Virus record (IMG/VR): IMGVR_UViG_3300007229_000004
Coordinates: 1 to 29,421 of that record
Source: a virus
Strand: one strand, 5' to 3'
Length of the DNA: 29,421 nucleotides
Below are positions 7,430 to 8,797 of the stretch, piece by piece. Below the pieces are notes generated by a model. That model saw only the letters and a list, made by a program, of their open reading frames with translations, ran no database searches and was not told the DNA's origin. A program made the translations under genes and the position numbers. Every line of letters begins with the position of its first letter. The first letter of the stretch is position 1.

Positions 7430-7647
7430 AGTTAGAGAAGCACTTGCGCCAAATGATTGTAGCGCAACTCACCCGGCTCACATACGAACAGAGGTTGGAG
7501 TACGTGAAAGACGCTCATGCCGAATTAGGCTATATAGATTTTATGGCTGTGATGATGGTTGCCTTAGAACTACCCATATCGAAGGGGGGTGTCTTATCAG
7601 AGGACATACAGAAACTCACCGATCATGACTCACGGAAGTCTTTTTAG
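7426..7647 (+). CDS. Hypothetical helical protein, 73 aa
   Basis: ATG overlaps the preceding stop (ATGA). The product is helical (HLRQMIVAQLTRLTYEQRLE) with a hydrophobic second helix around YIDFMAVMMVALELPI. The second helix is only moderately hydrophobic, so a membrane location is not certain. The end overlaps the start of the methyltransferase by 23 nt. Unknown function. Confidence 0.65.
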   Translation: MKLEKHLRQMIVAQLTRLTYEQRLEYVKDAHAELGYIDFMAVMMVALELPISKGGVLSEDIQKLTDHDSRKSF

Positions 7648-8797
7648 CGGCATTGGCGGCTTTGACTTAGCCGCAAGAAACGTAGGGTGGACTAATGTCT
7701 TCCACTGCGAAAAAGATGAGTTTGCTGGAAAGGTGCTAAAGCATCATTTCCCGGAGGCCGAAACATTCACAGACATAAAAGAATTTGATGCAACTCCGTT
7801 TCGAGGACGTGTACAGTGTATTTCAGGTGGATTCCCTTGTCAGCCATTTAGTGCAGCGGGAAAGCGGGCCGGGACATCCGACGATAGACATCTCTGGCCC
7901 GAAATGCTTAGAGTTATATCAGAGGTTATGCCCCGATGGGTCGTGGGCGAGAACGTTCGCGGTCTCCTTGGTTGGGGCGATGGGACTGAGGGGACAGAAG
8001 GGATGGTACTCAACGAAATTGTCTCTGACTTGGAAAGTCTCGGTTACGAAGTCTTCCCAACCATACTTCCTGCTTGCAGCGTCGAAGCCTCGCACAGACG
8101 GGACAGACTTTACGTTGTTGCTTACTCCAACCACCAAGGAGAATCCAGTGGATTTAGAGGTGTTCCAAAAACGGATGGAGAAGTACCCGAACGGGACACT
8201 CATTCCAAACTTGGCAACACAGGTCCAGCAGATGCTACCAACGCCGACGCGGTTCGACTACAACAGCGCACGGACACCGGAGAAGTGGGAAGAGGACAAA
8301 GCGAAGTACGCGGCCAAGGGCATAAACCTACAGAACCCACTGAAGCAACACGCGCGGCTAGGGATGCTACCAACGCCAACGACCAAGAATGTCAGCGGCG
8401 GAGCAGTGCAAGTCAATGCGAACGGCAAGAGGCAGAACAAAGGGGGCACGGAGTTCTCGGCTCAGTTACACGACTTGGCCAAGAGTCAGATGCTACCTAC
8501 TCCGACGGCAACGGATTTCAAGGGGGCGTACCCACCAACGAGCATAGACAACAACCCGGCACGGAAGAGTCTGCTGAGGAACGTGTACCATATGGATCAG
8601 ACGCAAGGGTACGATTCCAAAGATTCCCAACTCAGTCCCCGGTTTGTGGCGGAGATGATGGGCTTCCCACCGAATTGGACGGAATTACCTTTTCAAAATG
8701 GAGAAGGGAAAGCATCAAGTGTTACGGGAACGCAATCGTAGTTCCATTAGTAGAAATGATATTCAACGCAATCAATGAACAAGAAGGGATTTTATGA
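7625..8797 (+). CDS. C5-cytosine DNA methyltransferase
   Basis: 390 aa from ATG 7625, which opens directly onto motif I. It transfers a methyl group from S-adenosylmethionine to C5 of cytosine, presumably protecting phage DNA from host restriction. Visible motifs: I, HGSLFSGIGGFDLA; IV, SGGFPCQPFSAAGKR with catalytic C72; VI, GENVRG (109-113); VIII, HRRDRLYVVAYS (~157-168); X, CYGNAIVVPLVEMI near the C-terminus. Residues ~170-330 are low-complexity (repeats of DATNADxxR) where the target-recognition domain should be. This middle is read over a second long frame (7788-8741). The end segment RFPTQSPVCGGDDGLPTELD is a line I recognise from genuine C5 methyltransferases, so the full frame looks real. 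Confidence 0.93.
   Translation: MTHGSLFSGIGGFDLAARNVGWTNVFHCEKDEFAGKVLKHHFPEAETFTDIKEFDATPFRGRVQCISGGFPCQPFSAAGKRAGTSDDRHLWPEMLRVISEVMPRWVVGENVRGLLGWGDGTEGTEGMVLNEIVSDLESLGYEVFPTILPACSVEASHRRDRLYVVAYSNHQGESSGFRGVPKTDGEVPERDTHSKLGNTGPADATNADAVRLQQRTDTGEVGRGQSEVRGQGHKPTEPTEATRAARDATNANDQECQRRSSASQCERQEAEQRGHGVLGSVTRLGQESDATYSDGNGFQGGVPTNEHRQQPGTEESAEERVPYGSDARVRFQRFPTQSPVCGGDDGLPTELDGITFSKWRRESIKCYGNAIVVPLVEMIFNAINEQEGIL
7788..8741 (+). CDS. Overlapping frame inside the methyltransferase gene (LPTPT-repeat protein)
   Basis: A 317-aa open frame, +1 relative to the methyltransferase and lying wholly inside it (ATG 7788; TTG 7785 is also possible). From about residue 85 it reads like a real protein: LSLTWKVSVTKSSQPYFLLA, four spaced TPT motifs (LLLTPTTKE, MLPTPTRFDY, MLPTPTTKN, MLPTPTATDFKG), and RFVAEMMGFPPNWTELPF near the end. 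I recall this LTWK…LPTPTxxD…MGFPxxWT pattern as a family seen with phage C5 methyltransferases. Possibly the same DNA yields two proteins, or the second frame supplies a target-recognition segment. Whether it is translated is unknown. Confidence 0.55.
   Translation: MQLRFEDVYSVFQVDSLVSHLVQRESGPGHPTIDISGPKCLELYQRLCPDGSWARTFAVSLVGAMGLRGQKGWYSTKLSLTWKVSVTKSSQPYFLLAASKPRTDGTDFTLLLTPTTKENPVDLEVFQKRMEKYPNGTLIPNLATQVQQMLPTPTRFDYNSARTPEKWEEDKAKYAAKGINLQNPLKQHARLGMLPTPTTKNVSGGAVQVNANGKRQNKGGTEFSAQLHDLAKSQMLPTPTATDFKGAYPPTSIDNNPARKSLLRNVYHMDQTQGYDSKDSQLSPRFVAEMMGFPPNWTELPFQNGEGKASSVTGTQS

Follow-up and report, generated by a model that had tools for sequence, protein, structure and literature searches.

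Dual coding in a phage C5-cytosine DNA methyltransferase gene: a nested second gene that probably sets the target sites

Introduction

Strongly evidenced long overlapping genes on the same strand are rare, and a stretch of viral DNA of 29,421 nucleotides (IMG/VR virus record IMGVR_UViG_3300007229_000004, positions 1 to 29,421; hereafter the window) raises the question of whether a methyltransferase gene in it contains another gene, and what such a gene might do. Inside the gene of a C5 methyltransferase (alpha), the +1 frame runs without a stop from position 7779 to a TAG at 8739-8741, and the first ATG in it, at 7788, would give a protein of 317 aa (beta). A first-pass annotation had described this open frame (7788-8741), as we also find it, and had suggested that it could be one of a long-lived overlapping gene pair or a target-recognition region that has switched frame; both ideas proved largely right. 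A literature search for overlapping methyltransferase genes in phages found no direct report of such a case.

Results and discussion

Layout of the locus

The features of the locus are listed in Table 1. An alternative alpha start is possible at an upstream GTG (7589), and the PF00145 match spans alpha residues 2-384. The alpha frame has the C5 methyltransferase motifs I, IV (PCQ), VI (ENV), VIII (QRxR-like), and X (GN), whereas canonical motif IX, which the canonical set has, is absent from it in all overlap-type loci tested. In relatives, the recurring beta ATG lies approximately 20 codons before motif IV (median -20), ahead of a Q-L-x-L/F motif.

Table 1. Features of the alpha/beta locus in the window
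Feature	Position	Strand	Evidence
alpha: C5-cytosine DNA methyltransferase, 390 aa, motifs I-VIII and X	7625..8797	+	PF00145 E=1e-44; TIGR00675 E=4e-37; phrog_363 E=4e-65
beta: nested gene, +1 frame, 317 aa, stop TAG	7788..8741	+	phrog_1008 E=4e-21; open in relatives; purifying selection
beta, likely start codon	7788..7790	+	recurring ATG in relatives; alpha synonymous constraint starts there
alpha motif IV GGFPCQPF, catalytic cysteine	7826..7849	+	sequence
beta conserved segment SLTWKVSVTKSSQPYFLLA, overlapping the alpha region before motif VIII	8022..8078	+	near-invariant columns; predicted beta hairpin
alpha motif VIII region SHRRDRLYVVAYS	8090..8128	+	sequence
beta module array, four modules (M0, M1, M8, M4) joined at LLTPT/MLPTPT	8115..8624	+	module clustering; module exchange
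alpha linker, invariably open, with almost no constraint on its residues	8129..8640	+	stop counts; dN/dS
DNA repeat GATGCTACC(A/T)AC(G/T)CC, module joints, copies at 8231, 8363, 8489	8231..8503	+	sequence
beta motif IX-like segment SQLSPRFVAEMMGFPPNWTELPF	8625..8693	+	hhalign to canonical motif IX; M.HhaI PDB match
alpha motif X GNAIVVPL	8726..8749	+	sequence

Both frames are kept open across relatives

When the codons of the methyltransferase were shuffled synonymously, the +1 frame of the overlap contained 5.5 stops on average, against none in the actual sequence, and it was open in 0/200 shuffles; the +2 frame there has 12 stops. Considering viral loci fetched by the N-terminal half of alpha alone (motifs I-VIII), a set not biased toward beta, the same +1 frame was open in all 79, with a length of 160-392 aa except for one contig cut at 127, and in nearly all of them it runs to a motif ending in MGFP. 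By a stricter count, 128/130 loci have the open frame, and the remaining two represent a matching artefact and an MDFP variant. As a control, we examined canonical viral C5 methyltransferases that contain motif IX in their own frame, and the +1 frame was closed in 37/37 of them (mean 6.5 stops). According to the first-pass annotation, the frame should be considered a by-product if homologous loci had stops freely in it and showed no constraint at synonymous sites; one stop was observed versus 532 expected in 141 loci, and the synonymous sites are constrained (see below). The openness is also seen in the other direction: the alpha frame is open in 309 of the 320 full-length beta ORFs among all fetched loci, and when beta codons were shuffled in 140 loci, 643 stops were expected in the middle part of alpha, where none occurs.

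Selection acts on different frames in different parts of the overlap

We counted substitutions at alpha codon positions 1/2/3 in 67 independent pairs, where alpha position 1 corresponds to beta position 3. Before the overlap, the counts were 371/215/1058; over motifs IV-VIII they were 1183/664/2101, and over the middle part that follows motif VIII they were 865/294/300. The final part of the overlap gave 229/103/250, and the region beyond it gave 129/80/424. Given the correspondence of alpha position 1 to beta position 3, it is the beta protein, not the alpha protein, that is conserved in the middle part. In this part, the per-site rates were 0.083 for changes that are alpha-synonymous and beta-changing, 0.352 for alpha-changing and beta-synonymous ones, and 0.388 for those silent in both frames (few sites), which corresponds to a dN/dS of about 0.2 for beta (purifying) and about 0.9 for alpha (nearly neutral), doubly silent sites being few. 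A similar comparison of the window with its nearest relative (L013) gave 0/0/10 ahead of the overlap. Within the overlap, the counts were 6/0/0 for the first part, 29/5/3 for the middle, and 0/0/3 for the last part, and beyond it they were again 0/0/3. In a sliding view, the alpha synonymous rate drops from 0.57-0.72 to 0.32-0.42 at the beta start and returns to 0.55-0.60 past the beta stop, so that the constraint on alpha synonymous sites coincides exactly with the second frame; a synonymous-constraint analysis had been proposed as a check in the first-pass annotation.

The middle of alpha thus has no stops and nearly neutral residues, and therefore must be read through as a linker: one frame acts as a nearly neutral linker, while the other encodes the selected protein.

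It could be argued that the open second frame is an untranslated by-product of repeat or codon composition, considering that a DNA repeat is present and that only one of the two frames is annotated in many phage records. Such an explanation appears extremely improbable for a frame that is open across hundreds of divergent loci and closed in canonical relatives, and it is contradicted by the position-specific purifying selection. Shuffling, the substitution pattern, and the closed frame in canonical controls rule out chance or composition as the origin of the open frame. The nested +1 frame is confirmed as a real second gene, and the overlap is dual-coding.

Beta contains an array of exchangeable modules

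Beta has a conserved N-terminal half and, toward its C-terminus, a motif IX-like segment; the region separating the two contains 0-5 modules joined at LPTP. Clustering into families yielded 360 modules in 137 proteins, with a median length of 36 aa. The same module types were found at differing positions with up to 14 left neighbours, and 36 module pairs are at least 85% identical in phages whose alpha proteins are less than 65% identical. The beta modules are swappable and are shuffled between phages. In the window, the module order is M0-M1-M8-M4, and M1 is missing from the relatives L012 and L013.

These joints explain several features noted from the sequence at first sight. All the protein-like features named in the first-pass annotation were found, namely LSLTWKVSVTKSSQPYFLLA, four TPT motifs (8115, 8232, 8364, and 8490), and MGFPPNWTELPF. 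Its suggestion that one repeated DNA element lies behind the repeats of both frames holds for three copies of GATGCTACC(A/T)AC(G/T)CC, which are spaced by 132 and 126 nt and each encode MLPTPT when read as beta and DAT(N/Y)(A/S)(D/N) when read as alpha, but not for the fourth TPT motif (8115-8132), which is outside the repeat. The TPT motifs, the DNA repeat, and the low-complexity appearance of the alpha frame all arise because beta modules join at LPTP. The DATNAD repeat that had been attributed to the methyltransferase is present; since the alpha frame is hardly constrained there, it is most likely a mere shadow of the LPTP joints.

A second, free-standing beta copy was observed right after an intact alpha/beta pair in L045 (3244-3789; also in L046). 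The alpha frame of this copy is broken and its modules differ from those of the first beta, which suggests that beta can act in trans and that one alpha may work with more than one beta. Tentatively, beta might be a modular specificity subunit in which each LPTP module has its own target, phages shuffle modules, and one alpha serves more than one beta, although we give this extension somewhat less than an even chance. If true, it would represent a combinatorial C5-methylation specificity system concealed within the gene of its own catalytic polypeptide, in another reading frame.

A motif IX-like segment near the C-terminus of beta

All 120 relatives aligned matched phrog_1008, and no Pfam family match was found for beta. 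The C-terminal consensus of beta, L-N/S-P-x-F-V-x-E-M-M-G-F-P-x-x-W-T, resembles that of canonical motif IX, V-R-R-L-T-P-x-E-C-E-R-L-Q-G-F-P-D-G-W-T, and the two segments were aligned by hhalign with E=0.0013 and a probability of 18.5%, a short and modest match. A PDB profile search with the C-terminal segment gave M.HhaI 268-301 as the only match (E=0.25). In nearly all of 306 loci, the motif IX-like segment stands at a fixed distance of 65 nt before the alpha GN motif X, close to the canonical spacing of 19 residues between motifs IX and X. In the alpha frame, the same bases of the window encode SPVCGGDDGLPTELDGI.

With regard to structure, a beta hairpin (strands E79-86 and E92-99) was predicted with moderate confidence for the conserved segment SLTWKVSVTKSSQPYFLLA. 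AlphaFold gave no confident fold for beta alone (pLDDT 64, pTM 0.29), and a Foldseek search of the PDB with this beta model found no match. In an alpha-beta in-frame proxy, the alpha part was modelled well and the beta part had a pLDDT of 32-57, below usable confidence.

A two-polypeptide methyltransferase as the probable product

Based on the motif content and selection pattern of the two frames, we consider it quite probable that the locus is a gene pair on one stretch of DNA encoding a two-polypeptide C5-cytosine DNA methyltransferase, with beta determining which sites are targeted. Alpha would provide the cofactor-binding and catalytic motifs I-VIII, followed by a linker that needs only to be open and by motif X. 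Beta, presumably translated from its own ATG at 7788, would carry what canonical enzymes have between motifs VIII and X, i.e., a target-recognition region (modules of ~36 aa at LPTP) and a motif IX-like segment. The two polypeptides may bind each other as a heterodimer to form one active enzyme, in which the beta modules would determine the target sites, and the methylation would probably protect phage DNA from host restriction. In this respect, the earlier notion of a target-recognition region shifted to the other frame is supported.

Beta might instead be a real overprinted protein with an unrelated function (e.g., a regulator or an anti-defence protein) next to an alpha that is a complete enzyme alone, and the lack of a Pfam match and of a confidently predicted fold could be taken in this direction. 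We regard this as unlikely because alpha has no motif IX and its middle part is near-neutral, implying that alpha contains no conserved target-recognition region, and because the last part of beta includes a segment resembling motif IX, placed ahead of motif X just as in canonical enzymes.

A different way of combining the two frames would be a programmed double frameshift. The ribosome would leave the alpha frame for beta once past motif VIII and return to it ahead of motif X, so that one canonical enzyme would be produced and no separate beta. Selection does switch frame near motif VIII and back before motif X, and the joined motifs would be in canonical order. However, the middle of alpha would not need to stay open if it were skipped, yet it lacks all of the stops expected there; moreover, constraint on beta is already seen ahead of motif VIII, an ATG of its own recurs in relatives, and a free-standing beta copy is present in L045. 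A double frameshift therefore appears quite improbable, and separate translation of beta is the best-supported reading of the open alpha middle, the recurring ATG, and the upstream constraint. Thus, we favour two separately translated polypeptides that may act as one enzyme.

Distribution of the gene pair

By tblastn of phage records, relatives were detected in phages of Bacteroides, Porphyromonas, Paenibacillus, and Lacticaseibacillus, in an Escherichia phage, and in a marine phage, and the two-frame layout is the same in the loci read from these records. It was also found in a podovirus and a cyanophage. Bacterial genomes, mostly of Bacteroidota, carry the pair as well. Overall, the overlap is seen repeatedly in Bacteroidota, Bacillota, enterobacteria, actinobacteria, cyanobacteria, and marine hosts, either in their phages or in their genomes. 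A variant occurs in Mycobacterium phage Seabastian (gp75/gp76; L253), where two overlapping ORFs in different frames make up alpha and the third frame contains the MGFP motif.

The arrangement is common in phages, and usually only one of the two genes is annotated. Because many records keep one gene only, cloned phage methyltransferases may in many cases lack their target-choosing part, and the specificity of such enzymes now becomes directly testable.

Unusual alpha genes in relatives

Several observations concern alpha in loci outside the window. In some relatives (L380, L459/L044, L038, L154, the viral contigs L479-L528, L556, and L583), an in-frame stop and a YYN codon are inserted precisely at the Pro-Cys junction of the catalytic motif (GGFP-stop-x-CQP). 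A scan for any 6-nt insertion at this point detected 49 contigs; in each, the insert consists of a stop and then a codon for L, P, or S, and all 40 distinct inserts fit the rule of a stop plus YYN (TAA in 27, TGA in 10, and TAG in 3; the next codon is CTN in 20, CCN in 14, and TCN in 6). The proline codon before the insert is CCG in 19/40 inserts versus 9/361 loci without an insert, and alpha downstream of the stop is still conserved as a protein (157/118/338 substitutions in 16 pairs). The stop is possibly a site of natural ribosomal hopping, in which the ribosome would leave CCN, pass the stop, and land on a codon able to re-pair with tRNA-Pro (G-C/G-U); if so, GGFPCQP would stay intact. Readthrough with two extra residues is also possible, and for a 7-nt case (L556) a +1 frameshift could also be an explanation. 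In-frame stop hopping was described from synthetic constructs in a 2016 review, with no natural occurrences known (PMC5009743).

In four loci from Bacteroides genomes (L226, L227, L238, and L240) and in L001 (MT835926.1), the stops in the alpha frame are all TGA, and beta has none. The conserved TGAs stand at positions where tryptophan is expected, and these elements may decode TGA as Trp; in B. faecalis, the flanking regions of about 20 kb contained no tRNA gene. L001 also has an intein-like insertion in alpha at the catalytic cysteine (GGFPC ... VVHN CQPF), and its beta start falls inside the intein coding region.

Comparison with known methyltransferases

In methyltransferases of the M.EcoHK31I type, both polypeptides are needed for methylation and the target is YGGCCR; in 1995, Lee, Kam and Shaw reportedly found that a different reading frame within the alpha gene encodes the beta polypeptide of M.EcoHK31I. 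In M.EcoHK31I, alpha contains motifs I-VIII and X, and the smaller polypeptide contains motif IX only (PMC3404938). By description, the window locus would share this two-polypeptide split, with motif IX (or a motif IX-like segment) in the smaller polypeptide, with M.EcoHK31I and M.EaeI, and a small polypeptide in another frame inside the alpha gene is likewise found here, nested in +1 with a dual-coding signature. However, the target-recognition domain of M.EcoHK31I was predicted in the larger subunit (PMC3404938), whereas selection in the window locus places the target-recognition region in beta, together with a variable module array. A case closer to the description of M.EcoHK31I was seen in L282, a canonical-type C5 methyltransferase with only motif IX (RRLTPAECERLQGFPDGWT) in the +1 frame, which could also be due to a local frameshift or sequence error.

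The active M.AquI enzyme is also formed from two polypeptides (PMC3404938). It results from a single cut within the variable region, with motifs IX and X both in the small subunit; in contrast, the window locus has IX in beta and X in alpha on the same DNA.

The target-recognition domains of the multispecific Bacillus phage enzymes are about 40 aa, similar to the beta modules. Such domains are arranged in tandem in the variable region of the C5 methyltransferases of phages SPR, SPbeta, phi3T, and H2 (PMC8936443). These enzymes use one frame and one polypeptide, whereas the modules of the window locus, which may recognise DNA, are in a nested frame. The family of the beta relatives, phrog_1008, is labelled by function only as 'DNA methyltransferase'. 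The same nested arrangement as in the window is present in Paenibacillus phage Diva (DIVA_49/DIVA_50), where DIVA_50 is annotated as 'g49 internal gene'.
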